Origin: Duganella sp. 1224
Lineage (GTDB): Bacteria > Pseudomonadota > Gammaproteobacteria > Burkholderiales > Burkholderiaceae_D
Reading direction: 5' to 3'
Assembly: GCF_013408245.1 (NCBI RefSeq)
Contig: NZ_JACBYS010000001.1
Coordinates: 806,001-870,000 of the forward strand
Length of the DNA: 64,000 bases
Below, in pieces: positions 23,027 to 42,218 of this stretch. Made by a program: the position numbers and the translations under genes. The notes beneath the pieces were generated by a model. That model did not search any database. It saw nothing but the letters and a program-made list of their open reading frames with translations, and was not told the origin of the DNA. Numbering within the stretch: the stretch's first letter is position 1; every line of letters begins with the position of its first letter.

Positions 23027-23908
23027 ATGACCGATTTCACAACCCGCCGCATGCTGGTGCTGGCGCTGGCCAGCGCCCCGCTGGCGCGCGCCGCCGATCT
23101 GCTGGATCAGGCGCCAGGCACCACGCCGGTGTCGCGCACCGGGCAACTGGCGCGGCTGGAGAAGGAATACGGCGGCCGGCTTGGTGTGGCGGCGTTCAAC
23201 ACGGCGGACGGCCGCCAGTTGCTGCACCGCGCCGACGAGCGTTTCCCGATGTGCAGCACCTTCAAGATGATGCTGGCGGCGGCGGTGCTGGCGCGCGAGC
23301 CGTCGCTGCTGGACCGGCGCCTGCGCTACGACAAGGTGGATCTGGTGCCGCATTCGCCGGTCACTGGCAAGCACGTGGCGGAGGGCATGACGGTGGAGGC
23401 ACTGTGCGAGGCCACGCTGCAGTACAGCGACAACACGGCGGCCAATCTGCTGATGAAGCAGATCGGCGGTCCGGCGGCGGTGACGGCCTATGCGCGCTCC
23501 ATCGGCGACGCCGAGTTCCGGCTGGACCGCTGGGAAACCGAACTCAATTCCGCGCTGCCCGGCGACGTGCGCGACACCACCACGCCGCAGGCGATGGCGC
23601 GTTCGCTGCACAAGCTGGTGATGGGCGACGCGCTGCCGCTGCACTGCCGGCGCCAGCTCAAGGACTGGATGATCGGGAACACCACCGGCGCCACGCGCAT
23701 ACGCGCCGGCGTGCCCGCAGGCTGGGTGGTGGCCGACAAGACCGGCGCCGGCGATTACGGCACGGTCAACGACATCGCCGTGATCTGGCCGCCCGGCCGG
23801 GCGCCGATCGTGCTGGCCGTGTATCTGACCCAGCCCGCCAAGGATGACAAGGCACGCCCCGAACTGCACGGTGACGTGGCCAAGGTGGCGATCGAGGCGT
23901 TCCGGTGA
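23027..23908 (+). CDS. bla: Class A serine beta-lactamase with Tat-type leader
   Basis: The 293-residue product carries every class A active-site motif: Ser77 in STFK (77-80), SDN at 134-136, Glu170 in WETELN, and KTG at 238-240 in DKTGAGDYGT. The C-terminal third (NTTGATRIRAG, NDIAVIWPPGRAPIVLAVYLTQP) resembles CTX-M/L2-like enzymes. The leader TTRRMLVLALASAPLARA has a twin-arginine pair, so folded export by Tat is likely. The ATG at 23027 gives this leader; the frame is open to 22961, but that would precede the -10 box. Hydrolysis of penicillins and perhaps cephalosporins is expected; the spectrum cannot be read from sequence. Confidence 0.94.
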   Translation: MTDFTTRRMLVLALASAPLARAADLLDQAPGTTPVSRTGQLARLEKEYGGRLGVAAFNTADGRQLLHRADERFPMCSTFKMMLAAAVLAREPSLLDRRLRYDKVDLVPHSPVTGKHVAEGMTVEALCEATLQYSDNTAANLLMKQIGGPAAVTAYARSIGDAEFRLDRWETELNSALPGDVRDTTTPQAMARSLHKLVMGDALPLHCRRQLKDWMIGNTTGATRIRAGVPAGWVVADKTGAGDYGTVNDIAVIWPPGRAPIVLAVYLTQPAKDDKARPELHGDVAKVAIEAFR

Positions 23909-26044: not shown

Positions 26045-26074
26045 AGGGTCAGACCCCGTAAGGGGTCTGACCCT
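26045..26074. repeat. Perfect palindrome, REP-like element
   Basis: AGGGTCAGACCCC-GTAA-GGGGTCTGACCCT: 13-base perfect arms and a 4-base loop between convergent genes (GNAT and YdeI-like). Such GGGTCAGACCCC elements recur in Oxalobacteraceae chromosomes (from memory). It may serve as a two-way transcription stop, although no U-tract is present. Confidence 0.75.
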
Positions 26075-26099: not shown

Positions 26100-26651
26100 T
26101 CAGTCGTCGAGGCCCTTGCCGTCGAGGATGCGTTGCACGCATTTTTCGATGCGCGATTCGCGCGTTGTTGCTTGCTTGGCCGACGAAAAGTGCAGCAGGT
26201 AGGCGCGCTGCCGGCCAGGCGTCAACCCCTCAAACGCCGTGCGCAGGGCTGGCAGTTCATCCATCTTGCGCTCCAACTCCTCGGGAAAAGAGAACTCCGC
26301 AGTCTTCTTGAACGCCACCTTGGCGCCGGATTTTTCCAGCGCGATGGCGTCCTTGATGTAAGCCTTAAGCGTTTTCTCAAGCCGGGTGATGTCGGCCAGC
26401 GCGGTAAAGCGTATCTGCCGCGCGGCCTGCACGTTTTCCGTCTGCTGAATCAGGATGTTCTTCGGATCCTTCATCAACGCGCCCTTGAAGAACAGCAGCG
26501 CGCAGTACTCCTTGAAACCGTGGATCAGCACCACGTTCTGGCCGTCCAGCGTAAAGCAGGGCTGACCCCATTTGACCTGTTCGTCCAGGCCACAATCCAG
26601 CACGATGACGCGCAGTGCATCAAACTCCGCCTGCCACTTTTTATCGCTCAT
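26100..26651 (-). CDS. YdeI/DUF1801-type protein
   Basis: The 183-residue product has the YdeI/YdhG-like N-terminal half (VKWGQPCFTL, FKEYCALLFFKGALM) and a C-terminal helical region with RQRAYLLHFSSAKQATTRESRIEKC, typical of the bacteriocin-protection/OmpD-associated-like tail. The function is unknown. The start at 26651 is fixed by an ATGA overlap with the deacetylase stop. It is the last gene of the coupled NRPS-PPTase-deacetylase unit. Confidence 0.88.
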   Translation of the reverse strand: MSDKKWQAEFDALRVIVLDCGLDEQVKWGQPCFTLDGQNVVLIHGFKEYCALLFFKGALMKDPKNILIQQTENVQAARQIRFTALADITRLEKTLKAYIKDAIALEKSGAKVAFKKTAEFSFPEELERKMDELPALRTAFEGLTPGRQRAYLLHFSSAKQATTRESRIEKCVQRILDGKGLDD

Positions 26652-27379
26652 TTGGGCGCCTCCCATTCAAGGTGAACGACTTTGTAGCCCTTGTCCTGCA
26701 AGACCTTGAGCAGCGTGGGCAGCGCCCTGGCGGTGGCAGCGTGCTCGTCGTGCATCAGGATGATGCCGCGGCCTGCCTTATCCAGGCTCTCGGTCAGGCG
26801 CTGGGCCAGAATGGCGGTGGTATCCTCCGGGGTCCAGTCGTTGATGGCCATGTCGATGGAGGCGACCGTGATGTTGTCGCGCTTGAGCGCCTCCAGCAGC
26901 GTAGGTGTCTCTTCGAGGTAAGGGAAACGGTAGGCCGGCGGTTCGACGCCGAACACCGACTTGTAGGCGGCGCGGCTCAGTTTCAGGTCGTCCAGTTGCT
27001 GCTCGGGCGTCATCGTTCCCAGGTGCGGGTGCGTGTTGCTGTGGATGCCGGCCGAATGGCCCTCGCGGATCAGGCGCCGCGCCAGGTCGGGCTGCTGCTT
27101 GATATGTTCGCCGATCAGGAAGAAGGTCGCCTTGACGCATTGGTCGGACAGCGCTTTCAGCACCAGCGGCGTGTTGTCGGCGGATGGGCCGTCGTCGAAG
27201 GTCAGCACGACTTCACCTTTTTCCAGCGGCAGCGCGGCGTGCTGCAGCGCGCCGTATTGCGCGCCTTCGCGCTTCAGGGTGATGGTGCGGGCGGTGTTGA
27301 GCTGGTCCGGGCCGCACTGGGCGGCGGCGTTGGCGGTGGCTGTGGCGAGAACGGCGAGCAGCAGTGCGGTCAGTCTCAT
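26648..27379 (-). CDS. Secreted polysaccharide deacetylase (NodB domain)
   Basis: A 243-residue protein with a signal peptide (LTALLLAVLATATANAAA) and the carbohydrate esterase 4 motifs in order: TFDDGP, HSNTHPH, YRFPY, ASIDMAINDW and ILMHDEH. It should remove N-acetyl groups from a glycan, or act on a related amide, in the periplasm using a divalent metal. ATGA overlaps join it to the phosphopantetheinyl transferase upstream and the YdeI-like gene downstream. In this operon an acyl-amide product of the synthetase is another possible substrate; that is speculation. Confidence 0.93.
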   Translation of the reverse strand: MRLTALLLAVLATATANAAAQCGPDQLNTARTITLKREGAQYGALQHAALPLEKGEVVLTFDDGPSADNTPLVLKALSDQCVKATFFLIGEHIKQQPDLARRLIREGHSAGIHSNTHPHLGTMTPEQQLDDLKLSRAAYKSVFGVEPPAYRFPYLEETPTLLEALKRDNITVASIDMAINDWTPEDTTAILAQRLTESLDKAGRGIILMHDEHAATARALPTLLKVLQDKGYKVVHLEWEAPK

Positions 27380-27951
27380 GCGGTTTTGTCTCCGATGTGG
27401 ATGTGGCCTGCCAGATCAGGGTCTGGCAGGATCAGCGATATGGAGACGCCCGGAAGGTCGGCTTGCCATTCGCTGAGTTCTAATGCGTGGTATTTTAGCG
27501 CGGCTTCGCGTTGTGTCCATGCGTTCGCGAAGGCTTGCGGGCGGTGTGATGTGGCGTGCAGCGCGGCGGTGGCGGCTGGGCCGAGGTAGTCGCGGGCGAC
27601 GGCCTGCCAGTCAGGGATGTTCTGGACGCGCATGATGTCGGCGCCAATGGGGCCGTGGAGGTTGATGGCCGCCAGCGAGTAGTGGTCTTCGTGCGTGATG
27701 GAGATGCCGACGCCGCTCTGCGCGCCGGCCAGCAGGAGGCGCGGCGGCGTGCCGGGCGTGGAGGTGATGGCGATGTCGGCAACCGGCACGCCCAGCACGG
27801 CGGCCACTGCCTCGCGCGCCGCCAGGCGGACCTGGCGCCGTGCGGCATCGCGCTGCGCGGCGGCGGTGCGGGTGTCGATCAGGATGGCGAACAGGCCGTC
27901 CCGCGGCATCGGCGTGGGGCCGGGCCAGCGGTGGACGGCCAGCGCCTTCAT
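27376..27951 (-). CDS. 4'-phosphopantetheinyl transferase (Sfp-like)
   Basis: A 191-residue protein with the Sfp-type core: GISITHEDHYSLAAI, a PIGADI metal-ligand stretch and WTQREAALKY (the W-x-x-x-E-A-x-x-K motif). It is expected to load coenzyme A's phosphopantetheine arm onto a carrier protein. The start at 27951 overlaps the stop of the synthetase gene as ATGA, so its partner is almost certainly the carrier domain of that synthetase (Ser578). The acidic motif is somewhat divergent from Sfp. Confidence 0.9.
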   Translation of the reverse strand: MKALAVHRWPGPTPMPRDGLFAILIDTRTAAAQRDAARRQVRLAAREAVAAVLGVPVADIAITSTPGTPPRLLLAGAQSGVGISITHEDHYSLAAINLHGPIGADIMRVQNIPDWQAVARDYLGPAATAALHATSHRPQAFANAWTQREAALKYHALELSEWQADLPGVSISLILPDPDLAGHIHIGDKTA

Positions 27952-30900
27952 GGGCGCGCCGGAGCGGCCGGGCAGCCGGCCCAGTTGCCGTTGGCGGGGA
28001 TGGTTTCGCCCTTCATCACCAGCGTCAGCGCGCCGAGGCGGGCGTTGTCGCCGACGGCCGCGCTGTACAGTACCGCCGCGCGCGGCCCCATGTAGACACG
28101 CTCGCCAATCACCACCTGGTCGATCTTCATCACGCGGTCCTCGAACAGGTGCGTCTGCGGGCAGGTGAGCGCATTCAGTTCGCTGTTGTCGCCGATTTGC
28201 ACGCAATCGAATTCAGTGATGTCGGTGGTGTCCATGTACACGCCCTTGCCGATGCGGCAGCCCAGCAGGTTGAAGGCGATCGGCAGCCACGGCGTGCCGC
28301 GCAGGTAGCGCATGAAGTTGGGCACGGCGATGCCTTCATACAGGTTGGTCACGCCTTCCGACAGCCACACAAACGGCGTCCACATCGGCTCCGACTGTTT
28401 GCGATAGCGGCCGATCAGCGCCCACTTGAGCAGCACCACGAACACATAATTCAGCACGCCATACCCCAGGCCCGCCAGCGCCAGATCCCACGTCACTTCC
28501 GCCCAGCGGCCGGCACCGGCCGCCGGCATCACCGCCAGCACCAGCGTGTAGCCCACCGCGATCACCAGCGCGTGCGGCGCGACGATGCGGAAGGCCTCGA
28601 TCAAGCCGCGTCCCAGGCGGCGCAGCGGCGACGGGTGGAAGGTCAGGTGTTCCGGATAACCGCTGGTCTGCTCGCGCGCCGGCAGGTTGATAGGCGGGGA
28701 ACCGAGCCACGTATCGCCGTCCTTCATGTGGTGATTATCCGGCGCGCGCGAATGCACGCCGATCAGCACATGCTCCGGCAGCACAGTGCCGTCCGGGATG
28801 TAGGCACCGTTGCCGACGAAGCTGCGGTGCGACACCACGGTTGGCTTCATCACCATCCAGCCGCCGTCGATTTCTTCGTCGCCCAGCATGACCGCGTCGG
28901 CGATGAAGGTTTCGTCGCCCAGCGTCAGCATGTCCGGCACCACGCCCAGCGCGGTGGAGATTTCTGCGTCCTTGCCCACCTTGGCGCCCAGCAGGCGATA
29001 CCAGTACGGCGCGAACACGGTGGCGTAAATACCATGCAAAACGTTCAGGCTCGATTCCTGGATCTGGCTCACCAGCCATTTGGCACAGTAGGTGTTGCCG
29101 TGCACCGGGAACTGGCCGGGCTTCAGGCGTGGCAGCGCGCTCCAGCGGATACCGGCCGAGATCAGGGCGGTCAGCACGATCAGCACCGTGCTGGCGGGGA
29201 AGGCCAGCAGGAAGTAGCGCAGCAGTTGAATGCGCACGTCGTCGCCCTGAATCCACGGCAGCCAGCCCGCTTCGTCAAACCAGTCGATCAACACGAAGCT
29301 CGGGAACACCGGCATGAAGAACAGCGTGACGATGCCGAGGATGCCGAGCACGAAGAACAGCGCCTCGGCGGCGCGGCGCGCGGCGGTAACTGGTGGGCGC
29401 GGCGGCAGGCGGGTGGTATCGAAGGCGCCCATGTCGCGCGCCGGTGAACCGGCCCACACGCGGCCGGCCGGCACCACGCCGCCGTCGCTGAGCGCCGACT
29501 GGCCTTCCAGATGGCCCAGCGTCTCCACGCGCGTGTTCCCCTCCAGGATGGCGTAGGAGCTGACGCAGGCGTCTTTTTCCAGCGTGATCTGGCCAAGGTG
29601 CAACTGGCCGCGTTCGACGCGGGCGTTTTCAAAATTGACGGCGTTGCCGATGCTGACCTGGTCGCCGATGTGCAGCAGGTCCGGGGCCCGTAGCGTGTAG
29701 GAGCCGATCGTGACTTCCTTGCCGATCCTGGCGCCGAGCGCGCGCAGCCACCAGATGTTGAGCGAGGAACCGCTGAGCAGATAGGCCGGCGCCGCCTCCA
29801 CCAGGCGGTCTGCCAGCCACCAGCGGTAGTAGGTCAGCCCCCATAGTGGGTAGCTGCCGGCTTGCAGGCGGCCGGCGATCAGCCACTTGCCAAGAATGGC
29901 GATGCCGAATTCGCCGATGGTCGCCAGCAGGAACACGCCGACCGAGGCGGCAATGGCGCGCGCCACCGAGTCGCCGGGGTCGCCGGTGAAGAAGTGATAG
30001 GTGAAGAAGGGCGCCAGCCATTGCGCCATGCGCAGCGTGACCAGCGGCGGCATGGCAGCGGCCTGGGCGATGCCGCATACCCAGCGTTTTACCCGCGATG
30101 GCGGCGTCCAGTCCTGTTCCTGCTGGCCGCCGCCGGGAGCGTCGGCCAGCGCCTGGGCGATCTTGCCGATCTGGCGTTGCTGGTAGATGTCCCTGACGGT
30201 GACGTGGGCGTAGCGCGGGTCGGCGCGCAGCGCGGAGGCCAGGCGGGCGGCGAAGAACGAGTGGCCGCCAAGATCGCTGAAAAAATCGGCGTGGCGCAAG
30301 ATCGGCTGGCCGGGGAACAGCGTGGCTAGCGCGGCGAACAGCGCTTCCTCTGCTGGCGTTTCAGGCAGGTCGGATTCGGCGACGCTGCCGGCCGGCGGGG
30401 CGCTGAGCGGCGTGGCCTTCAGCGTTTTGCGGTCGATTTTGCCCGAGGTCAGGCGCGGCATGGCGTCCAGCATTTGGTAGCGGCCGGGGACCATGTGCGG
30501 CGGCAGTTTTTCGGCCAGCGCGGCGCGCAGCGTGCGGTTGTCCAGCGTGACGCCGGAATCGGGCACGATGTAGGCCACCAGCTGGTCGATGCCGTCATCC
30601 TTGCGCAGCAGGACGGCGACCGTGCCGACGCCGGGTTGCTGCGCCAGCAGGGCTTCGATTTCGCCCAGCTCCACGCGGAAGCCGCGGATCTTGACCTGGT
30701 CGTCGGCGCGGCCCAGGCAGGTCACTTCCTCGTCCGGGCCGATGCGCGCCAGGTCGCCGGTGCGGTACAGGCGCGCGTCGTGCGGGCCGGTGGACCAGGG
30801 ATTGGGCAGGAATTTTTCCGCCGTCAGGTCAGGGCGGCCGAGGTAGCCGGCCGCCAGGCCTGGGCCGGTGATGCATAATTCGCCGACTTCGCCGTAGGGC

Positions 30901-31991
30901 AGCAGGCGCAGGACCGGGCCGGAGGCGCCGGGCGCGGCGTCGGTATTGGCGTCGATGACCAGCAGGCCGTAGTTGGGCAGCGGGCGGCCGATGGTGACCG
31001 GATAGCCCGGCTGCAGGCGCGCCAGACTGGCCGACACCGTGGCCTCGGTCGGCCCATAGGTGTTGAACATCTGCCGGCCCTCGCGCGACCAGCGCGCGAC
31101 CAGCGACTCCGGACAGGCCTCGCCGCCGAGGTTAATCAGCCGCAGGCCCGGCACGTCCTGGTTGAACAGCGCGAGCAGCGTCGGCACCGCATGCAGCACC
31201 GTCACGTGGTGCTGCTCCAGCATGCGCGGCAGCGTCTCCGGATCGCCGCTGATTTCCTTGGGCCCGATCCACAGCGTGGCGCCGACCAGGTACGAAATCC
31301 AGATCTCCTCGAACGACATGTCGAAGGCCACCGAAAAGCCCTGATACACCTTGTCGTCGGCGCGCACGCCCAGCACCTCGTTCTCGCTGCGCAGGAAGTG
31401 GCAGATGCTGCGCTGGGTGATCAGGATGCCTTTCGGCTTGCCGGTCGAGCCGGACGTGTAGATCACATACGCCGGCACGTCCGGCGACACGGTGCCGCGC
31501 CGCGCCAGCACCTCGCCGTCCGCCGGCGCGGCCAGCAGCGCCTCCGCGGTCCACACCGGACGGCCGGACGCCACGAAATCGGCCAGCGCGGCCAGGCGCG
31601 GCGCGAACGCGGCGCTGGTCAGCACACCGGCGCCGGACGCGTCGTCCAGGCACACCTGCAGCCGCTCGACCGGCGTATCCTCATCCACCGGCAGCCACGC
31701 GGCGCCGGCCTTGGCGATGCCCGCCTGCAGCACCAGCAACTCGATCCCGCGCGGCAGCCACAGGCCGACGATCTGGCCCGGCCGGACGCCCGCCGCGATC
31801 AGCCGCGACGCCACCAGGTCGGCCTGCCCGTTCAGCTCACGGTAGCTCAGCGACCGTTCGCCGAAAATCAGCGCGGTCTGGTCGGGCGTGCGGGCGGCGC
31901 TGGCTTCCAGCAGGTCGGCGAGGATCTCCTCGCGCAGCAGGCTTTCCTGCTGAGGGCCAAAAAGGACGTGCGGTGTTGCGGCTTGATTCAT
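27948..31991 (-). CDS. Pls/PosA-type non-ribosomal peptide synthetase (A-T-membrane-tandem beta-helix)
   Basis: The 1347-residue product has an adenylation domain (about 1-525: YVIYTSGSTGKPKG at 175-188, NTYGPTE, YRTGD, GRADDQVKIRGFRVELGE, Lys518 in SGKID) and a carrier domain with Ser578 in LGGHS. It has no condensation or thioesterase domain. The rest alternates membrane helices with three left-handed beta-helix-like blocks (starting near GARIGKEVTIG, GAKVGKDAEIS, GCRIGKGVYMD). This order is that of the epsilon-poly-lysine synthetase Pls and polyspermidine-type PosA proteins (TIGR02353-type C-terminal part). The pocket begins Asp224-Met225 with Glu228, compatible with a basic amino acid but not decisive. 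It leads a four-gene unit with its own PPTase. Product: probably a membrane-made isopeptide homopolymer (inference). Confidence 0.9.
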   Translation of the reverse strand: MNQAATPHVLFGPQQESLLREEILADLLEASAARTPDQTALIFGERSLSYRELNGQADLVASRLIAAGVRPGQIVGLWLPRGIELLVLQAGIAKAGAAWLPVDEDTPVERLQVCLDDASGAGVLTSAAFAPRLAALADFVASGRPVWTAEALLAAPADGEVLARRGTVSPDVPAYVIYTSGSTGKPKGILITQRSICHFLRSENEVLGVRADDKVYQGFSVAFDMSFEEIWISYLVGATLWIGPKEISGDPETLPRMLEQHHVTVLHAVPTLLALFNQDVPGLRLINLGGEACPESLVARWSREGRQMFNTYGPTEATVSASLARLQPGYPVTIGRPLPNYGLLVIDANTDAAPGASGPVLRLLPYGEVGELCITGPGLAAGYLGRPDLTAEKFLPNPWSTGPHDARLYRTGDLARIGPDEEVTCLGRADDQVKIRGFRVELGEIEALLAQQPGVGTVAVLLRKDDGIDQLVAYIVPDSGVTLDNRTLRAALAEKLPPHMVPGRYQMLDAMPRLTSGKIDRKTLKATPLSAPPAGSVAESDLPETPAEEALFAALATLFPGQPILRHADFFSDLGGHSFFAARLASALRADPRYAHVTVRDIYQQRQIGKIAQALADAPGGGQQEQDWTPPSRVKRWVCGIAQAAAMPPLVTLRMAQWLAPFFTYHFFTGDPGDSVARAIAASVGVFLLATIGEFGIAILGKWLIAGRLQAGSYPLWGLTYYRWWLADRLVEAAPAYLLSGSSLNIWWLRALGARIGKEVTIGSYTLRAPDLLHIGDQVSIGNAVNFENARVERGQLHLGQITLEKDACVSSYAILEGNTRVETLGHLEGQSALSDGGVVPAGRVWAGSPARDMGAFDTTRLPPRPPVTAARRAAEALFFVLGILGIVTLFFMPVFPSFVLIDWFDEAGWLPWIQGDDVRIQLLRYFLLAFPASTVLIVLTALISAGIRWSALPRLKPGQFPVHGNTYCAKWLVSQIQESSLNVLHGIYATVFAPYWYRLLGAKVGKDAEISTALGVVPDMLTLGDETFIADAVMLGDEEIDGGWMVMKPTVVSHRSFVGNGAYIPDGTVLPEHVLIGVHSRAPDNHHMKDGDTWLGSPPINLPAREQTSGYPEHLTFHPSPLRRLGRGLIEAFRIVAPHALVIAVGYTLVLAVMPAAGAGRWAEVTWDLALAGLGYGVLNYVFVVLLKWALIGRYRKQSEPMWTPFVWLSEGVTNLYEGIAVPNFMRYLRGTPWLPIAFNLLGCRIGKGVYMDTTDITEFDCVQIGDNSELNALTCPQTHLFEDRVMKIDQVVIGERVYMGPRAAVLYSAAVGDNARLGALTLVMKGETIPANGNWAGCPAAPARP

Positions 31992-33710: not shown

Positions 33711-34769
33711 ATGCAAGCCACCATCACTGACGCTCCGTTTGGCCTCTTGCCGGATGGGCGTGAAGCCGCCCTGTACACCCTGACCAACGCCAACGGCATG
33801 GTCGCCAGGATCAGCAACCTGGGTGGCGTGATCACCGGGCTGCACGTGCCGGATCGCGACGGTGTGCTGGCCGACGTCTGCCACGGCTTCGACAACGCTG
33901 CCGCCTACCTGGGTGAGTCGCATTACTTCGGCGCGTTGATCGGCCGTTACGGCAACCGCATTGCCAATGGTCGCTTCACGCTGGACGGGGTGGTGTATCA
34001 ACTCGACCAGAACGATGGCGTCAACCACCTGCACGGCGGCGCCAACGGCTTCCACCGCCAACTGTGGGAGGCGGAAACCTTCGCCACGCGGCAGTCGGTG
34101 GGCCTGATCCTGACTTACATGAGCCCGGACGGCGACCAGGGTTATCCCGGCAACGCCGAGGTCACCGCCATCTACGAACTGCGCAACGACAACGAGCTGC
34201 GCATCGCCTTCCATGCGGTGTCCGACCGGGCCACGCCGATGAACCTGACCAACCACGCTTACTTCAACCTGGCCGGCAAGGGACAGATTCTCGACCACCA
34301 GCTGACGATTGTCGCCGACGCCTACACCCCGGTCGGTGCAGGGCTGATACCGGTCGGCGCGCCGGCGCCGGTGGCCGGCACCCCGTTCGACTTCCGCACA
34401 CCGCACGCCATCGGCGCGCGCATCGACCAGGCCGACGCGCAGCTGGCGCTGGGCTCTGGCTACGATCATAACTTCGTGCTGGCCAAATCAGCCGACAAGG
34501 CGCTGGAAGTGGCGGCCCGCGTGGTGGATCCGGCATCCGGCCGGGTGCTGGAGGTGTGGACGCAGGAGCCGGGCATCCAGTTCTACAGCGGCAATTTCCT
34601 CAATGACGGCGTGCAGGGCAAGGGCCGCGTCTACAGCCATCGCAGCGCTTTCTGCCTGGAGCCGCAGCACTTCCCGGACTCGCCCAACCGTCCGGACTTC
34701 CCGTCCACCATCCTGCGCCCCAACGAGGAATATGCGACGGTGATGGCCTACCGCTTCAGCGTGGCCTGA
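33711..34769 (+). CDS. galM: Aldose 1-epimerase (mutarotase)
   Basis: A 352-residue galactose mutarotase-fold protein with the GalM signatures IGRYGNRIANGRF, NHLHGGANGFHRQLWE, the catalytic His in NLTNHAYFNL, and the catalytic Glu region CLEPQHFPDSPN. It interconverts alpha and beta anomers of aldoses such as galactose and arabinose. The ATG at 33711 is preferred, because the in-frame ATG at 33678 lies before the -10 box. It stands at the head of the arabinose island and appears to share its regulatory element. Confidence 0.95.
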   Translation: MQATITDAPFGLLPDGREAALYTLTNANGMVARISNLGGVITGLHVPDRDGVLADVCHGFDNAAAYLGESHYFGALIGRYGNRIANGRFTLDGVVYQLDQNDGVNHLHGGANGFHRQLWEAETFATRQSVGLILTYMSPDGDQGYPGNAEVTAIYELRNDNELRIAFHAVSDRATPMNLTNHAYFNLAGKGQILDHQLTIVADAYTPVGAGLIPVGAPAPVAGTPFDFRTPHAIGARIDQADAQLALGSGYDHNFVLAKSADKALEVAARVVDPASGRVLEVWTQEPGIQFYSGNFLNDGVQGKGRVYSHRSAFCLEPQHFPDSPNRPDFPSTILRPNEEYATVMAYRFSVA

Positions 34770-34781
34770 GCTGCCCAGCTA

Positions 34782-34846
34782 TATCAATTTCGATATCGAT
34801 ATTGATAAACAATTCATTGGAAAGTTATCTCGGTCCATTTTAGTAT
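34782..34846 (+). promoter_or_regulatory. Dehydratase-operon promoter with LysR-type palindrome
   Basis: A 26-base near-perfect palindrome centred on CGATATCG (34782-34807; outer arms TATCAATTT and ATATTGATA) lies about 58 bases before the predicted transcript start, a typical LysR recognition position. TTGGAA (34817-34822), 18-base spacer and TAGTAT (34841-34846) follow. It aligns without gaps to 46391-46456. Confidence 0.65.
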
Positions 34847-34909
34847 CCCTCATCGATGCGGGGGCGGGGCGGTCGCGCCCCCGCGCAGGAATATATTGAG
34901 GAGAAATGC

Positions 34910-36652
34910 ATGTCTGAGCATGACAAAAAGGTGAAGCTGCGCTCGGCCGAGTGGTTCGGCACGGAAGATAAGAACGGCTTCATGTACCGCAGCTGGATGA
35001 AGAATCAGGGCATTCCTGACCACGAATTCCAGGGCAAGCCCATTATCGGCATCTGCAACACCTGGTCTGAGCTGACTCCCTGCAACGCGCACTTCCGCAA
35101 GCTGGCGGAACACGTCAAGCGCGGCATCCTCGAAGCCGGCGGCTTCCCGGTCGAATTCCCGGTATTCTCCAACGGCGAATCGAACCTGCGCCCGACCGCC
35201 ATGCTGACCCGTAACCTGGCCTCGATGGACGTGGAAGAATCGATCCGCGGCAATCCGATGGATGGCGTGGTGCTGCTGGTCGGCTGCGACAAGACCACGC
35301 CGGCGCTGCTGATGGGCGCTGCCTCGGTAGACATCCCGACCATCGTGGTCACCGGCGGCCCGATGCTGAACGGTAAACTGAACGGCAAGAACATCGGCTC
35401 CGGCACCGCCGTCTGGCAACTGCACGAGCAGGTCAAGGCTGGCGAAATCTCGATGCACGACTTCATCGCCGCCGAAGCGGGCCACTCGCGTTCCGCCGGC
35501 ACCTGCAACACCATGGGCACCGCGTCGACCATGGCCTGTATGGCCGAATCGCTGGGCACCTCGCTACCGCACAATGCCGCCATTCCGGCGGTGGATGCGC
35601 GCCGCTACGTGCTGGCGCACATGTCGGGCATCCGCATCGTCGAAATGGTGAAGGAAGACCTGAAACTGTCGAAGATCCTGACCAAGGAGAACTTCGAGAA
35701 CGCCATCCGCGTCAACGCCGCCATCGGCGGTTCGACCAACGCCGTGATCCACTTGAAGGCCATCGCCGGCCGCATCGGCGTCGACCTGGAGCTGGAGGAC
35801 TGGACCCGCGTTGGCCGCGGCACGCCGACCATCGTCGACCTGCTGCCGTCGGGCCGCTTCCTGATGGAGGAGTTCTACTACGCCGGCGGCCTGCCGGGCG
35901 TGATCCGCCGCATGGGCGATGGCGCCATCCTGCCGCATCCGAACGCGCCGACCGTCAACGGCAAGAGCCTGTGGGACAACTGCAAGGACGCGCCGATCTA
36001 CGACGACGAGGTTATTCGCACGCTGGACAATCCGATCTGCAAGGACGGCGGCATCTGCATCCTGCGCGGCAACCTGGCGCCGCGCGGCGCCGTGCTCAAG
36101 CCATCGGCCGCCACGCCGGAGCTGATGCAGCATCGCGGCAAGGCGGTGGTGTTCGAGGACTTTGAGCACTACAAGGCGCGCATCATGGACCCGGAACTGG
36201 AAGTGGACAAGGATTCGGTGCTGGTGATGAAGAACTGCGGCCCGAAAGGCTATCCGGGCATGGCGGAAGTGGGCAATATGGGCCTGCCGCCCAAGCTGCT
36301 GGCGGCAGGCGTGAAAGACATGGTGCGCATTTCTGACGCGCGCATGTCCGGCACCGCTTACGGCACCGTGGTGCTGCACGTGGCGCCGGAGGCCATGGCC
36401 GGCGGCCCGCTGGGCATCGTCAAGGATGGCGACTGGATTACGCTGGACTGCGCCGGCGGCAAGCTGAATCTGGAAGTGTCGGATGAGGAAATCGCCGCGC
36501 GCCAGGCCGTGCGTGAACGCGGCAGCGCGCCGGGGCCGAAGACCGGTTATCAGCAGCTGTACATCGAACATGTGCTGCAGGCGGACGAGGGCTGCGATTT
36601 CGATTTCCTGGTCGGCAAGCGCGGTTCGGCCGTGCCGCGCCACTCGCATTAA
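34910..36652 (+). CDS. IlvD/Edd-family sugar-acid dehydratase, probably L-arabonate dehydratase
   Basis: The 580-residue product is an IlvD/Edd Fe-S dehydratase: cluster Cys in ICNTWSELTPCN, VGCDKTTPA and AGTCNTMGTASTMACMAE, and the C-terminal ARMSGTAYGTVVLHVAPEA. Pentonate-specific members are of this size. The neighbours (an AraD1-like protein, a semialdehyde dehydrogenase, an SDR, arabinosidases) point to L-arabonate or D-xylonate as substrate, giving 2-dehydro-3-deoxy-pentonate. A GAGGAG site precedes the ATG at 34910, which settles the start. Confidence 0.92.
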   Translation: MSEHDKKVKLRSAEWFGTEDKNGFMYRSWMKNQGIPDHEFQGKPIIGICNTWSELTPCNAHFRKLAEHVKRGILEAGGFPVEFPVFSNGESNLRPTAMLTRNLASMDVEESIRGNPMDGVVLLVGCDKTTPALLMGAASVDIPTIVVTGGPMLNGKLNGKNIGSGTAVWQLHEQVKAGEISMHDFIAAEAGHSRSAGTCNTMGTASTMACMAESLGTSLPHNAAIPAVDARRYVLAHMSGIRIVEMVKEDLKLSKILTKENFENAIRVNAAIGGSTNAVIHLKAIAGRIGVDLELEDWTRVGRGTPTIVDLLPSGRFLMEEFYYAGGLPGVIRRMGDGAILPHPNAPTVNGKSLWDNCKDAPIYDDEVIRTLDNPICKDGGICILRGNLAPRGAVLKPSAATPELMQHRGKAVVFEDFEHYKARIMDPELEVDKDSVLVMKNCGPKGYPGMAEVGNMGLPPKLLAAGVKDMVRISDARMSGTAYGTVVLHVAPEAMAGGPLGIVKDGDWITLDCAGGKLNLEVSDEEIAARQAVRERGSAPGPKTGYQQLYIEHVLQADEGCDFDFLVGKRGSAVPRHSH

Positions 36653-36660
36653 ACCCACCC

Positions 36661-36735
36661 CCGTCGCTCCGGCGAAAGCCGGAGCCCATGCTGAGCATGC
36701 GTTCCATGGGTTCCGGCCTGTGCCGGAACGACAGC
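36661..36735 (+). repeat. Intergenic palindromic repeat, copy 1
   Basis: Two 7-bp hairpins, CTCCGGC-GAAA-GCCGGAG (36667-36684) and TTCCGGC-CTGT-GCCGGAA (36711-36728), flank a CCCATG...CATGGG centre. The reverse complement of 39312-39386 matches it along the whole length. Confidence 0.85.
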
Positions 36736-36751
36736 GCTTAGGAGACTTTAC

Positions 36752-37744
36752 ATGCTACTCGTACAATTCAAAAATGAACAAGGCGCGCGCCAGGTCGGCG
36801 TGCTGGAACAGGATACCCTCCGCATCATCGACGGCTACAGCACCACCTACGCGCTGGCCCTGGATGCGATCCGCAAATCGGTCGGCCTGGCTGCGCTGGT
36901 GGACAAGTCGGTTGGCACGCAGACCGCGTCGTTCGGCGCCGTGGCCGCCGCCGGCCGCCTGCTGCCGCCGCTGGATCACACCGACCACGCCCACACCTAC
37001 GTCACCGGCACCGGCCTGACCCACCTCGGTTCCGCCGACACCCGCGACGCCATGCACAAGAAAATCGGCGGCGATGTCGAATCGCTGAGCGACTCGATGA
37101 AGATGTTCCGCCTCGGCGTGGAAGGCGGCAAGCCCGCCGCCGGCACCGCCGGCGTGCAGCCGGAGTGGTTCTACAAGGGCGATGGCTCGATCGTCGCCGC
37201 CAGCGGCCAGGACCTGTCGATGCCGGACTTCGCGCTGGATGGCGGCGAAGAGCCGGAAGTGGCCGGCCTGTACGTGATCGGCGACGACGGCCAGCCATAC
37301 CGTGTCGGTTTCGCCATCGGCAACGAGTTCTCGGACCACGTGACCGAACGCCAGAACTACCTGTACCTGGCGCACTCCAAGCTGCGCGCCTGCGGCCTTG
37401 GCCCGGCGCTGCTGGTCGGTGAGGCGCCCGCCAGTGTCGAGGGCACTTCGCGCATCTACGACAAGGAAGGCAAGGTGCGCTGGGAGAAGCCGTTCTTCAG
37501 CGGCGAACAGAATATGTCGCACACCATCGCCAACCTGGAACACCACCACTTCAAGTACCCGCTGTTCAAGCGTCCCGGCGACGTGCACGTGCACTTCTTC
37601 GGCACCGCCACCCTGAGCGTGGCCGACAACATCGTCGTGCAGCCTGGCGAAACCTTTGAAATCGAAGCGCCGCAGTTTGGCCCGGCGCTGCGCAACAAGC
37701 TGTCCGTGTTCAAAACCGAAGTCGCGAAAGTGAAAACATTATGA
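36752..37744 (+). CDS. AraD1/GguC-like FAH-superfamily protein, probable 2-dehydro-3-deoxypentonate dehydratase
   Basis: A 330-residue member of the fumarylacetoacetate hydrolase superfamily by pattern (GLYVIGDDGQPYRVGFAIGNEFSDHVTERQ..., RPGDVHVHFFGTATLS, a C-terminal beta-rich end). FAH-fold enzymes of Weimberg-type pathways dehydrate 2-keto-3-deoxypentonate to 2-oxoglutarate semialdehyde (XylX of Caulobacter). The position between a pentonate dehydratase and a semialdehyde dehydrogenase fits exactly that step. TAGGAG precedes the ATG; the stop overlaps the next gene by four bases. Confidence 0.85.
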   Translation: MLLVQFKNEQGARQVGVLEQDTLRIIDGYSTTYALALDAIRKSVGLAALVDKSVGTQTASFGAVAAAGRLLPPLDHTDHAHTYVTGTGLTHLGSADTRDAMHKKIGGDVESLSDSMKMFRLGVEGGKPAAGTAGVQPEWFYKGDGSIVAASGQDLSMPDFALDGGEEPEVAGLYVIGDDGQPYRVGFAIGNEFSDHVTERQNYLYLAHSKLRACGLGPALLVGEAPASVEGTSRIYDKEGKVRWEKPFFSGEQNMSHTIANLEHHHFKYPLFKRPGDVHVHFFGTATLSVADNIVVQPGETFEIEAPQFGPALRNKLSVFKTEVAKVKTL

Positions 37745-39309
37745 TGATTACTGGTGATGCACTGATTGGCGGCAAAGCCGTCAAGGGCACGGGCGCTGGC
37801 GTCCGCGCATACAACCCGGCCCTGGGCCAGGTCATTGAGCCCGAGTTCCGCACCGTGGACGCGGCGCAGATCGACCAGGCCTGCCGCCTGGCCGAGGAGG
37901 CTTTCGACACCTTCCGTTCGCTGAGCGACGAGCAGCGCGCCGGCTTCCTGGAGACCATCGCCGACCAGATCATGGCCTTGGGCGATGTGCTGGTCGAGCG
38001 CGTGATGGAAGAAACCAGCCTGCCGCGCGTGCGCGTGGAAGGTGAGCGCGGCCGCACCGTCGGCCAGCTCAAAATGTTTGCCAACCTGCTGCGCGAAGGC
38101 TCGTGGAACGACGTGCGCTTCGACAAGGCGCTGCCGGAACGGACGCCGCCGCGTCCCGACCTGCGCATGCGCATGATCGGCCTGGGCCCGGTGGCTGTTT
38201 TCGCGGCCAGTAACTTCCCGCTGGCTTTTTCTGTCGCTGGCGGCGACACCGCGTCGGCGCTGGCCGCCGGCTGCCCGGTGGTGCTGAAGGCGCACTTTGC
38301 CCATCCCGGCACCTCGGAACTGGTGGGCCGCGCGGTGGTCAAGGCGGTGGAGATCTGCGGCCTGCCGGCCGGCGTGTTCTCGCTGCTGACTGGCGTTGGC
38401 AATGAGTTGGGCATTGAGCTGGTGCGCCATCCGGCCATCAAGGCGGTCGGCTTCACCGGCTCGCGTGGCGGCGGCATGGCGCTGATGGCCGCTGCCGCCG
38501 CGCGTCCGGTGCCGATTCCGGTGTATGCGGAAATGAGCTCGATCAATCCGGTGTTTCTGCTGCCGCAGGCGCTGAAGAACCGCGCCGAAGATATCGCCGC
38601 CGGTTTCGCCGCTTCGCTGACCATGGGCGTGGGGCAGCTGTGCACCAATCCCGGCTTGGTGCTGGCGATTGATGGTCCCGATCTGGAGCGCTTTACCACT
38701 GCCGCCTCGCAGGCGCTGGTGGGCGGCGCGGCATGCTCGATGCTGTCGCCTGGCATCGCCGGCAATTTCGCGCGTGGCGTGAACCAGCTGGCCGGTCATG
38801 CGGACGTGAAGACGCTGGCGCTGGCGCCGCAGGCGGAAGGCAAGGGGGCGCCGGCGCTGTTCGTGTCGAATGCGTCGGCGTTCCTGTCGCAGCACGCGCT
38901 GCAGGAAGAGATCTTCGGTCCGGCCTCGCTGGTGGTGGTGTGCAAGGATGTGGCGGAGCTGCGCCAGGTGGCTGAGAAGCTGGAAGGCCAACTGACCGCC
39001 ACGCTGCAAATGGACGAAGGCGATATCGACGCGGCGCGCGCGCTGCTGCCGGTGCTGGAGCGTAAAGTGGGCCGCATTCTGGCCAACGGTTATCCGACCG
39101 GCGTGGAGGTCAGCAGCGCCATGGTGCATGGCGGTCCGTTCCCGTCGACCTCCGACGGGCGGTCGACGTCGGTGGGCACCGGTGCGATCGCGCGCTTCCT
39201 GCGGCCGGTGTGCTATCAGAACCTGTCGCAAGCGTTGCTGCCGGAAGTCCTGCGTGACGACGGCAGCGCCACCTGGCTGCGCCGCGACGGTGAATTGACC
39301 CGTAACTAA
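37741..39309 (+). CDS. 2-oxoglutarate semialdehyde dehydrogenase (ALDH family)
   Basis: A 522-residue aldehyde dehydrogenase: PVAVFAASNFPLAFSVAGGD, VGFTGSRGGGMAL for cofactor binding, catalytic Glu in EMSSINPVFLLP, and catalytic Cys in GQLCTNPGLVL. It resembles the ketoglutarate semialdehyde dehydrogenase group, which is longer than ordinary ALDHs. It should oxidise 2-oxoglutarate semialdehyde to 2-oxoglutarate, the last step of oxidative pentose breakdown. ATGA overlap with the AraD1-like gene. Confidence 0.92.
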   Translation: MMITGDALIGGKAVKGTGAGVRAYNPALGQVIEPEFRTVDAAQIDQACRLAEEAFDTFRSLSDEQRAGFLETIADQIMALGDVLVERVMEETSLPRVRVEGERGRTVGQLKMFANLLREGSWNDVRFDKALPERTPPRPDLRMRMIGLGPVAVFAASNFPLAFSVAGGDTASALAAGCPVVLKAHFAHPGTSELVGRAVVKAVEICGLPAGVFSLLTGVGNELGIELVRHPAIKAVGFTGSRGGGMALMAAAAARPVPIPVYAEMSSINPVFLLPQALKNRAEDIAAGFAASLTMGVGQLCTNPGLVLAIDGPDLERFTTAASQALVGGAACSMLSPGIAGNFARGVNQLAGHADVKTLALAPQAEGKGAPALFVSNASAFLSQHALQEEIFGPASLVVVCKDVAELRQVAEKLEGQLTATLQMDEGDIDAARALLPVLERKVGRILANGYPTGVEVSSAMVHGGPFPSTSDGRSTSVGTGAIARFLRPVCYQNLSQALLPEVLRDDGSATWLRRDGELTRN

Positions 39310-39311
39310 AA

Positions 39312-39386
39312 CAGCGTCGTCGCGGCGAAAGCCGTGACCCATAGAACGCATGCTCAGTATGGGCCCCGGCTTTCGCCGGGGTGACA
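39312..39386 (-). repeat. Intergenic palindromic repeat, copy 2 (inverted)
   Basis: CCCCGGC-TTTC-GCCGGGG (39364-39381) and a weaker TCGCGGC-GAAA-GCCGTGA hairpin (39319-39336) flank a CCCAT...ATGGG centre. It matches copy 1 at 36661-36735 in the opposite orientation, two genes away. Confidence 0.85.
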
Positions 39387-39405
39387 GAATAATCACGGAG
39401 ACTGT

Positions 39406-40173
39406 ATGACACAACTGGCCAGGTTCGGCAGCTTGCGCGGCAAGCGCGTATTCATCACCGGCGGCGGCACCGGCATCGGTGAAGCCATGGTGATTTCCTT
39501 CGCGGAGCAGGGCGCGCAGGTGGCTTTCGTCGACATCGCGCGCGACGCCAGCCTGGCGCTGATCCGCCGCGTGAAGGAAGCCGGTTATCCTGAACCGCTG
39601 TTCCGCCAGTGCGACATTACCGACATCCCCGCGCTGCAGTCCACCATGGCCGACATGGCCGGCGTGGTCGGCGACTTCGACATCCTGGTCAATAACGCCG
39701 CCAACGACCAGCGCCATGAAACGGCCGACGTCACGCCGGAATTCTGGGACAAGTGCATCGCCGTCAACCAGCGTCCCATGTTCTTCACCTGCCAGGCCGT
39801 ATTGGAAGGCATGAAGAAAAAGGGGGGCGGCTCCATCATCAACATCGGCTCCATCTCCTGGCACGTCAAGAACGCCGGCTATCCTGCCTACGCCACCACC
39901 AAGGCCGCCACGCACGGCCTGACGCGCGGGCTGGCGCGTGAATTCGGCGCCCATGGCATTCGCGTCAACACCGTCACGCCGGGCTGGGTGATGACCCAGC
40001 GCCAGATCGACCTGTGGCTGGATGACGCCGGCGAGGAAGACATCAAGCGCAACCAGTGCCTGCAGAACAAGCTGATGCCGCAGCACGTGGCATCGATGGT
40101 GCTGTTCCTGGCCGCCGACGACGGCGCCATGTGCACCGCGCAGGAATTCATCGTCGACGCGGGCTGGGTATAA
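39406..40173 (+). CDS. SDR-family dehydrogenase, probable L-arabinose/D-xylose 1-dehydrogenase
   Basis: A 255-residue classical short-chain dehydrogenase: cofactor motif TGGGTGIGEA, NNAAND, catalytic Ser in NIGSISW, and YATTK active site. In this cluster the missing first step is oxidation of free pentose to the 1,4-lactone, which SDR enzymes such as Caulobacter XylB carry out; the assignment is from context. CACGGAG precedes the ATG. No lactonase gene is present; lactone may open spontaneously or by an enzyme encoded elsewhere. Confidence 0.87.
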   Translation: MTQLARFGSLRGKRVFITGGGTGIGEAMVISFAEQGAQVAFVDIARDASLALIRRVKEAGYPEPLFRQCDITDIPALQSTMADMAGVVGDFDILVNNAANDQRHETADVTPEFWDKCIAVNQRPMFFTCQAVLEGMKKKGGGSIINIGSISWHVKNAGYPAYATTKAATHGLTRGLAREFGAHGIRVNTVTPGWVMTQRQIDLWLDDAGEEDIKRNQCLQNKLMPQHVASMVLFLAADDGAMCTAQEFIVDAGWV

Positions 40174-40262
40174 GCCGCAAGCAGTAGCAACACCGTTCGC
40201 CCCCGGAGACAGCGCGCATCGACGCGGCGGGGTATCGCAACCATCAGATAAATGGTAGGAAC

Positions 40263-42218
40263 ATGTTGAAGACAACCGTAGTCAAGGCGCTGACCTGCGC
40301 CACCGCCGCGATGGCCGTGACCGTGGCCGTCGCCACGCCGGCCGCCATCGCCGCGCACGCCCCAGCCGCGCTGCGCAGCCCGGACAAGCACATCGCCGTT
40401 ACCGTCCGCCAGTCCGAGGGCCGGCTGACGTATGCCATCGCCCGTGACGGCAAGCCGGTGCTGCTGCCATCCGACCTTGGCCTGCAACTGGCCGGCGCCG
40501 ACCTGACCGACGGCCTGACGCTGGTTGCCGCCTCCGCGCCGCGTGTGGTGGAAGACCACTACCAGATGGCGGTGGGCAAGCGCAAGGACATCAGCTACCG
40601 CGCCAATGAACAAACCTGGTCGCTGCAAAACGCCAAGGCGCAGAAGATCGACATCGTGTTCCGCGTCTCGAATGACGGCGTGGCGTTCCGCTACATCGTG
40701 GCCGACACCACGCTGCCGCTGAAAAAGCTGGTGCAGGAACACACCACCTTCGCGCTGCCGGCTGGCGCCCAGGCGTGGCTGCAGCCGATGGCGGTGGCGC
40801 AGACCGGCTTTGCCAACACTAATCCATCCTACGAAGAGCACTACCAGATGGAGATCCCGGCCGGCACGCCGTCGCCGTCCGAAGCAGGATGGGTGCTCCC
40901 CGCATTGTTCCGGACCGGCGCCAACTGGCTGGCCATCTCCGAGGCGGACATGGACGGCAGCTGGCAGGCATCGCGCCTCGCGCAGAACGCCCCCGGCGGC
41001 AAATACAGCATCGGCAACCCGATGCCGTCCGAAGTCTTCACCAACGGCGGCCTGATGGCCGAAACGCAGGGCACGCTCACGTCGCCATGGCGCATCATCG
41101 CGCTTGGATCGCTGGCCACCGTCACCAACTCCACGCTGGGCACCGACCTGGCGGCACCCGCGATCGCCTTTGACCCCGCGCGCGTCAAGCCTGGTCATGC
41201 CTCGTGGAGCTGGGTGATCCTGAAAGACGACTCCATCGTCTACGACGTGCAGAAGCAATTCATCGACTACGCGGCCGACATGAAGTGGGACTACACGCTG
41301 GTGGATGCCGACTGGGACCGCAAGATCGGCTACGAAAAAATCAAGCAGCTGGCCGATTACGCCGCCACAAAGAACGTAGGCCTCATCCTCTGGTACAACT
41401 CGTCCGGCGGATGGAACAAGACCGAGTACTCGCCCAAGAGCCAGTTGCTCACGCACGAGCAGCGGGTAAAGGAGTTCAAGCGGCTGACCGACATCGGCAT
41501 CAAGGGCCTGAAGATCGACTTCTTCGCCGGCGACGGCCAGTCGATGATCGCCTACTACAACGACATCCTGCGCGACGCCGCCAACGCCGGCCTGCTGGTC
41601 AACTTCCACGGCTCCACGCTGCCACGCGGCTGGGCGCGCACCTGGCCCAACCTGATGACCATGGAAGCGATACGCGGCTTTGAGTTCGTCACCTTTGGCC
41701 AGAAGGACCAGGACCTGATGCCGACCCACGCCGCCATGCTGCCGTTCACGCGCAACCTGTTCGACCCGATGGACTTTACGCCGATGGTGTTCGGCGACAT
41801 CCCCAAGATCAAGCGGTCTACCCGCAACGGCTTTGAACTGGCCACGTCGGTGCTGTACCTGTCCGGCATCCAGCACTTTGCCGAGACGCCGGAGGGCATG
41901 GCGACGGTGCCGGACTACGTCAAGACCTTCTTGCAAAAGCTGCCGCGCAGTTGGGACGACAGCCGCCTGGTGGAAGGTTATCCGGGCAAGTACGCCGTTA
42001 TCGCCCGCCGCGCCGGCGATACCTGGTACATCGCCGGCATCAACGGCACCACCGCCGACAAAACGCTGATGCTGGACCTGTCCTTCATCGGCAACAAGCA
42101 GGGCATGATCATGACCGATGGCGATGGCGAGCGCAGTTTCACCCAGCGCCCCATCGCCGCCGGCAAAAAAGTAGCGGTAACCATCAAGCCGCACGGCGGC
42201 TTTGTCATTCAACTATAA
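40263..42218 (+). CDS. Glycoside hydrolase family 97 protein
   Basis: The 651-residue product has a signal peptide (ending near AIAAHA), an N-terminal GH97 beta-sandwich (RSPDKHIAVTVRQSEGRLTYAI), a TIM barrel and a C-terminal beta-domain. The barrel motif KGLKIDFFAGDG places Asp419 as the likely nucleophile of the retaining GH97 subgroup, which includes alpha-galactosidases and beta-L-arabinopyranosidases. In an arabinan-oriented cluster the latter is attractive, since beta-L-arabinopyranose mimics alpha-galactose. GGTAGGA precedes the ATG. It starts a run of three secreted glycosidases. Confidence 0.92.
   Translation: MLKTTVVKALTCATAAMAVTVAVATPAAIAAHAPAALRSPDKHIAVTVRQSEGRLTYAIARDGKPVLLPSDLGLQLAGADLTDGLTLVAASAPRVVEDHYQMAVGKRKDISYRANEQTWSLQNAKAQKIDIVFRVSNDGVAFRYIVADTTLPLKKLVQEHTTFALPAGAQAWLQPMAVAQTGFANTNPSYEEHYQMEIPAGTPSPSEAGWVLPALFRTGANWLAISEADMDGSWQASRLAQNAPGGKYSIGNPMPSEVFTNGGLMAETQGTLTSPWRIIALGSLATVTNSTLGTDLAAPAIAFDPARVKPGHASWSWVILKDDSIVYDVQKQFIDYAADMKWDYTLVDADWDRKIGYEKIKQLADYAATKNVGLILWYNSSGGWNKTEYSPKSQLLTHEQRVKEFKRLTDIGIKGLKIDFFAGDGQSMIAYYNDILRDAANAGLLVNFHGSTLPRGWARTWPNLMTMEAIRGFEFVTFGQKDQDLMPTHAAMLPFTRNLFDPMDFTPMVFGDIPKIKRSTRNGFELATSVLYLSGIQHFAETPEGMATVPDYVKTFLQKLPRSWDDSRLVEGYPGKYAVIARRAGDTWYIAGINGTTADKTLMLDLSFIGNKQGMIMTDGDGERSFTQRPIAAGKKVAVTIKPHGGFVIQL

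Follow-up and report, generated by a model that had tools for sequence, protein, structure and literature searches.

A predicted delta-poly-L-ornithine synthetase of the Pls/PosA family with a probable cognate phosphopantetheinyl transferase and a CE4 deacetylase coupled in one lineage of Duganella: the unit of Duganella sp. 1224

The minus strand of a 64,000-nucleotide stretch of the Duganella sp. 1224 genome (contig NZ_JACBYS010000001.1, positions 806,001 to 870,000; hereafter the window) carries a unit of four genes at window positions 26100-31991, encoding a synthetase, a phosphopantetheinyl transferase (PPTase), a CE4 deacetylase and a protein with DUF1801 and PF13376 domains. The boundaries given in a first-pass annotation of the letters hold exactly. 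We consider it probable that the unit consists of a PosA-type core for poly-ornithine synthesis with a long-standing PPTase, to which a CE4 enzyme acting on carbohydrate was added later and the fourth gene last. The synthetase belongs to an already named family and its chemistry is not new. The system is a known kind of synthetase with a cognate PPTase and a CE4 coupling specific to one lineage, not a new biosynthetic principle. Families were assigned with Pfam and NCBIfam: AMP-binding and TIGR02353 for the synthetase, ACPS, Polysacc_deac_1, and DUF1801 with PF13376.

The synthetase (27948..31991, 1347 residues) is a single-module enzyme of the Pls/PosA family, with an adenylation (A) domain, a T domain and a membrane/beta-helix polymerisation domain, and is a predicted delta-poly-L-ornithine synthetase. 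The family placement, proposed in the first-pass annotation, is borne out by the profile TIGR02353, 'Pls/PosA family non-ribosomal peptide synthetase', which matches the C-terminal polymerisation domain (residues 642-1342, 27966..30068) with 846.4 bits against a cut-off of 423.1. A single A domain (residues 28-518, 30438..31910) is matched by AMP-binding, there is a single T domain with its serine, and the Pfam and NCBIfam scan detects no canonical condensation or thioesterase domain. The T domain was recognised from NCBIfam spans and an LGGHS motif, the PP-binding family of Pfam giving no match at E 0.01. Ser578 of this motif (30258..30260), the phosphopantetheine site by alignment, is serine in all 176 aligned synthetases. 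A simple hydropathy scan, not a trained transmembrane predictor, places three hydrophobic clusters in the C-terminal domain, near residues 675-706, 870-945 and 1129-1188. When the A domain alone is the query the best Protein Data Bank (PDB) match is PosA (8g95); with the whole synthetase, chains of the two-A-domain linear gramicidin synthetase score slightly above PosA.

The substrate pocket is formed by Asp224, Met225, Glu228, His267, Asn287, Gly289, Thr311, Val319, Ser320 and Lys518. The resulting code, DMEHNGTVSK, is identical at all ten positions to that of Acinetobacter PosA, retains the conserved acidic residues at code positions 1 and 3 (Asp224 and Glu228), and is shared by 142 of the 176 distinct synthetases in the alignment, that of the window included. 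PosA makes delta-poly-L-ornithine chains 7-12 units long (PMC10522769). Neither its Asp217 nor its Glu221 can be dispensed with, the latter contacting the side-chain amine, whilst Met218 restricts substrate length. Glu228, singled out in the first-pass annotation as an acidic pocket residue, aligns with Glu221 of PosA, and the basic substrate suggested there is supported by the pocket code. Because the pocket is identical to that of PosA, ornithine is the predicted substrate and delta-poly-L-ornithine the likely product; the earlier label 'polyspermidine' has to be dropped, PosA being a poly-ornithine synthetase (PMC10522769). Use of another diamino acid, such as lysine or diaminobutyrate, or synthesis of a mixed polymer appears distinctly unlikely. 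Pocket codes are not certain predictors and PosA itself activates lysine weakly, but the match to PosA extends to Met225, and the PosA M218A substitution raised lysine use nearly tenfold (PMC10522769).

The profile exceeds its cut-off in 120 of 294 sampled genomes of the family, 8 of 369 in a class sample and 26 of 398 in a phylum sample, the window genome being included in each; the synthetase is common in its own family and sparser elsewhere. Only above-cut-off counts were used. At E 0.001 the profile matches 293 of the 294 genomes as well as 13 of 14 controls, hexapeptide repeats being the presumed cause, and one control, Corynebacterium glutamicum, lies above the cut-off. Family loci were drawn from 80 of the 120 above-cut-off genomes, and for named organisms the 80 top-ranking of 554 relatives were taken, so that close relatives are over-represented; among the named organisms Duganella margarita has the closest synthetase (94% identical). 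The window genome, a Duganella relative of 6.1 Mb in 20 contigs, contains no second synthetase of the Pls/PosA kind, its ten other matches being A-domain or C-terminal hexapeptide stretches only. The genus sample comprises 60 genomes, 37 with and 23 without the synthetase. Neighbourhood counts use loci with at least 2.5 kb downstream (43 of the Duganella clade, 95 other PosA-like and 28 distant), which are related and not independent. The synthetase tree (53 sequences, 50 different) was built by a quick method with SH-aLRT support only. Distant synthetases (loci L195-L198, L207 and L210-L223) have other pockets, for example DAESIGTIIK, DFECISAVTK, DVEANGTGSK and DLEDLGTVVK, and may use other diamino acids; the pocket of L223, DSECYGGVTK, is the code given for a Bdellovibrionales enzyme in PMC10522769.

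The PPTase gene (27376..27951) overlaps the synthetase stop by four nucleotides and encodes an Sfp-type enzyme of 191 residues, assigned from PF01648 (ACPS, 32.3 bits against a cut-off of 25), profile searches that match AASDHPPT and Sfp, fold and co-occurrence. The AlphaFold2 model has a mean pLDDT of 95.5, and its top PDB match is the Sfp-CoA-PCP complex 4mrt (E 1.4e-08, TM-score 0.64). Sfp-type enzymes carry a metal-binding aspartate, a second acidic residue and the glutamate of a WxxxE(A/S)xxK motif. Asp105, Glu149 and Lys153 are invariant in 89 aligned sequences (88 distinct, that of the window being counted twice).

Close homologues of the PPTase (E <= 1e-27) occur in 31 of the 60 genus genomes. 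They adjoin the synthetase, no more than about 120 nucleotides downstream, in 30 of the 37 genomes that have one, and occur in only one of the 23 that lack it (G330, whose genome is 60% complete), in keeping with the dedicated PPTase first proposed. A PPTase starts within 250 nucleotides of the synthetase in 34 of 43 Duganella-clade loci and in 70 of 95 other PosA-like loci, among them representatives of Janthinobacterium, Massilia, Pseudomonas and Polaromonas. The count for distant loci, 0 of 28, is a lower bound since the PPTase profile was built from its own lineage. Of 32 loci taken from searches of the class and the phylum, two (L204 and L213) show a PPTase-like match anywhere in the stretch. 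We infer that the PPTase is an old, cognate partner of the synthetase that has been retained over a broad lineage. Beyond this gene, the window genome contains two PF01648 matches, of which one exceeds the cut-off. At five loci (L038, L098, L175, L176 and L177) a gene termed c81 replaces the PPTase between synthetase and CE4; its C-terminus, judged by eye, is PEP-CTERM-like.

The third gene (26648..27379) encodes a CE4/NodB deacetylase of 243 residues (PF01522, 111 bits) with motifs MT1-MT5 complete and an N-terminus that appears signal-like by eye. The residues Asp62, Asp63, His113, His117, Arg151, Pro153, Asp181 and His210 are present in all 27 aligned sequences (26 distinct, five from outside the operon), and position 182 is tryptophan in 23 and tyrosine in four. 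We follow PMC10967932 for the meaning of the motifs and for the activity of CE4 enzymes, the deacetylation of polysaccharides. The nearest PDB chains are 7y51 and 7fbw, described as 'predicted xylanase/chitin deacetylase', together with peptidoglycan N-acetylglucosamine (GlcNAc) deacetylases.

A CE4 gene lies downstream of the synthetase in 24 of the 43 Duganella-clade loci. Within 2.5 kb downstream there is none in the 95 other PosA-like or the 28 distant loci, as judged with a profile from 26 sequences of its own family that very distant CE4s could escape, and the 32 loci of the wider searches (class and phylum) likewise show no match. The coupling is as unusual as the first-pass annotation supposed. 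CE4 relatives at E <= 1e-20 are found in 25 of the 60 genus genomes, 20 with and five without the synthetase. In all 20 genomes with both, the synthetase and one CE4 copy (63-100% identical) are at most about 1.1 kb apart, the relatives in the five synthetase-free genomes are 53-54% identical, and six genus genomes carry a second match elsewhere at 30-32% identity. A search of 245 family genomes adds two relatives from outside the genus at E <= 1e-30. All carriers fall inside a 31-member clade of the synthetase tree, where a single gain would entail about four losses on the tree as drawn, by our own count and with some forks unsettled. In the CE4 tree a branch with support 99/98 separates the 21 operon copies from the rest, and the inner groups resemble those of the synthetase tree. 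The coupling of CE4 to the synthetase is specific to the Duganella lineage and looks like a later addition. Pfam matches neither the gene that occupies the CE4 position in Duganella sacchari (c196, L094) nor one lying downstream in a sister group (c33, L183).

Eight CE4 homologues, 53-60% identical, lie outside synthetase loci, and six of them (L178-L181, L232 and L233) sit among glycan-degradation genes: glycoside hydrolase (GH) families GH31 and GH97, alpha-L-fucosidase, melibiase, and BNR/Sortilin-type and SASA esterase-type proteins. These neighbours were identified with Pfam on representatives and the remainder by clustering or BLAST. By clustering, the other two (L182 and L231) show none of these gene groups. 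Given these six neighbourhoods, the CE4 substrate is likely a carbohydrate, and the gene itself most probably came from carbohydrate metabolism. The CE4-bearing glycan-degradation locus recurs in Duganella genomes (L178-L181 and L233), and its gene set resembles, in our reading, a xyloglucan-use locus.

In the first-pass annotation the CE4 was instead taken to process further a secreted cationic polymer or a surface-linked product, here read as a polymer joined to a surface glycan. The overlapping genes and the signal-like N-terminus would suit such a role, but CE4 enzymes act on polysaccharides (PMC10967932), poly-ornithine lacks acetyl groups that could be removed, Pfam identifies no glycosyltransferase or ligase among the four genes, and PosA yields free polymer in vitro (PMC10522769). 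With six of the eight relatives outside the operon residing among glycan-degradation genes, we regard polymer processing as highly improbable.

The fourth gene (26100..26651, 183 residues counted from the overlapping ATG) encodes a protein in which Pfam recognises DUF1801 and PF13376 ('OmdA/YdeI'), with a YdhG/frataxin-like N-terminal domain and no signal-like start as judged by eye. The model (pLDDT 88.6) gives weak matches to YjbR, YdhG and a YdhG-like frataxin at E 0.004-0.012, none at or below 0.001. Nearly full-length orthologues, 56-100% identical, occur in 35 of the 60 genus genomes: in 13 they are part of the unit (12 with CE4), in six they lie on the synthetase contig at a distance of 4.5-10.4 kb, in eight they are elsewhere in a genome with a synthetase, and eight genomes have no synthetase. 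Within the synthetase tree the gene accompanies 17 of the 18 members of the window's clade and no other. It is a general Duganella gene and probably not polymer-specific; a cytoplasmic, frataxin-like role would be our guess. The polymyxin-resistance role attached to the earlier label 'YdeI-like' was tested and rejected. E. coli YdeI is annotated BOF and matches PF04076 only, Salmonella YdeI is a periplasmic protein of the OB-fold family (PMC6370654), and the fourth protein has no PF04076 match, no signal-like start and a model that weakly resembles YjbR/YdhG.

Adjacent genes share an ATGA overlap at all three junctions (27948..27951, 27376..27379 and 26648..26651), as first noted. Among loci with synthetases at least 86% identical the overlap is kept in 23 of 24 synthetase/PPTase, 19 of 20 PPTase/CE4 and 10 of 16 CE4/fourth-gene pairs. 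More divergent PosA-like loci seldom have the synthetase/PPTase overlap (1 of 10 and 11 of 76 pairs), the PPTase start usually falling a few bases further downstream. The rate of non-synonymous substitution (dN) is below the synonymous rate (dS) in 16 of 16 comparisons, each of the four genes being compared with four chosen relatives (L089, L090, L093 and L099). The dN values and the recurrence of the junctions in close relatives indicate a unit beyond chance. A sigma-70-like promoter was sought upstream of the synthetase and none was found. Among the literature matches listed for the four-gene set, PosA follow-ups, links between PPTase and deacetylase, and self-resistance, with subscription papers thinly covered, the unit is undescribed. 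The first view of the whole as a candidate undescribed system does not extend to the synthetase, which has the pocket of the published PosA.

Conservation of the unit bears on whether CE4 and the fourth gene might be passengers that share a transcript with the core genes and have no connection to the polymer, the CE4 then being a plant-glycan esterase from a glycan-degradation locus. The neighbourhoods of the six non-operon homologues would be expected on this basis, as would the genes for an aldose epimerase, an IlvD/Edd-type dehydratase and a GH97 enzyme that lie upstream of the window synthetase, and the fourth gene has most of its 35 orthologues outside the unit. Yet CE4 never strays further than about 1.1 kb from the synthetase in the 20 genomes with both, the PPTase/CE4 overlap persists at all but one of 20 loci, and the operon CE4s cluster together and track the synthetase tree. 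We regard passenger status of these two genes as less likely than not.

In the scheme that we favour, Ser578 of the T domain would receive phosphopantetheine from the PPTase. L-ornithine, held by Asp224 and Glu228, would be adenylated by the A domain and passed to the T domain; the membrane-embedded C-terminal domain would join successive units by bonding the delta-amine of each to the carboxyl group of the following one, and delta-poly-L-ornithine would exit the cell. The synthetase and PPTase would form the oldest unit. CE4, probably a secreted carbohydrate deacetylase, would have been gained downstream in one Duganella lineage and then translationally coupled, with the fourth gene, found 4.5-10.4 kb downstream in a sister group, the last to join. 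We infer this order from one quick tree. On it, two groups lack the PPTase, several species are without CE4, and a single one of the 18 members of the window's clade has no fourth gene.

The CE4 target would most likely be an acetylated carbohydrate outside the cytoplasm, not the polymer, and deacetylation might free amines on an envelope glycan of the producer such that its own polycation is repelled. Since CE4-type deacetylation of surface glycans can shield other bacteria from cationic antimicrobials (PMC8807736, PMC12239567), self-protection is the most interesting role to consider. Built-in immunity of this type, whereby a surface or periplasmic glycan is deacetylated and the envelope re-charged to repel poly-ornithine, is speculative and in our estimation unlikely. 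Nothing similar appears among the literature matches listed in a search aimed at this reading, which is a weak test of novelty. With respect to PosA, a synthetic 12-mer of delta-poly-ornithine has a minimum inhibitory concentration (MIC) of 0.15-0.30 g/L for three fungi and a posA knockout forms slightly more biofilm (PMC10522769).

Several observations weigh against the scheme. The second acidic position of the PPTase, two after Asp105 and equivalent to Glu109 of Sfp, is methionine in 77 of the 89 sequences. Seven of the 37 Duganella synthetases have no adjacent PPTase, which implies that another PPTase can serve, and weaker homologues elsewhere raise the PPTase tally to 48 of 60 genomes (E <= 1e-4). 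CE4 is missing beside 17 of the 37 synthetases and is therefore dispensable for the polymer, and at four loci (group pCy) a further gene separates the two, the CE4 start lying some 0.9-1.1 kb away from the synthetase. Acinetobacter PosA is a single-gene operon (PMC10522769). Finally, the MIC of the 12-mer exceeds 0.30 g/L for two Gram-negative bacteria (PMC10522769), so that the need for self-protection is weaker.

Just past the end of the operon is a palindrome, GGGTCAGACCCC...GGGGTCTGACCC (26046-26073), with 36 copies in the 6.1 Mb genome, none for the reversed control, and a folding z of -3.9. It looks like a dispersed element of the repetitive extragenic palindromic (REP) type, possibly a terminator between convergent genes. 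A Class A-type beta-lactamase gene (23027-23908, PF13354) is nearby, and several related loci likewise have a homologue close to the synthetase (cluster c5, 33 members). Upstream, divergent sugar-use genes at 33711-42218 encode the aldose epimerase, the IlvD/Edd-type dehydratase, an aldehyde dehydrogenase and the GH97 protein.

PosA-type synthetases, characterised as a lone Acinetobacter gene, usually accompany their own PPTase in the Duganella lineage, a partner that PMC10522769 does not describe for posA. The two enzymes represent a natural pair for delta-poly-ornithine production. Closely related species with and without CE4 offer a clean genetic case in which to ask if a Gram-negative producer is protected from its own polycation, and by what means.

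Comparison with characterised systems places the unit. PosA of Acinetobacter baumannii (PMC10522769; PDB codes 8G95-8G98) resembles the window synthetase in domain order, family and the ten pocket residues; it is however a lone gene, whereas the Duganella synthetase is joined by overlapping codons to genes for a PPTase, a CE4 and a DUF1801/PF13376 protein. Pls, the epsilon-poly-L-lysine synthetase (7WEW), has the same family and architecture. It is less similar in the A domain (266 bits as opposed to 504-506 for PosA) and carries alanine where the window enzyme and PosA have methionine (PMC10522769). The PPTase shares its fold with the Sfp-type enzymes (Sfp, 4mrt, and human AASDHPPT, 2cg5) and has invariant Asp105, Glu149 and Lys153 at the family motifs. 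It differs in its small size of 191 residues and in the methionine that replaces the second acidic residue of Sfp. The five CE4 motifs are common to the CE4/NodB1.1 deacetylases (7y51, the peptidoglycan GlcNAc deacetylases and ArCE4A), although enzymes of the window type adjoin a polymer synthetase and display RFPYL or RFPFL at MT3 rather than RPPYG. The fourth protein, which combines DUF1801 and PF13376 and has no signal-like sequence, shares only the PF13376 family name with YdeI/OmdA of Salmonella and E. coli (BOF), the E. coli protein matching PF04076 only.

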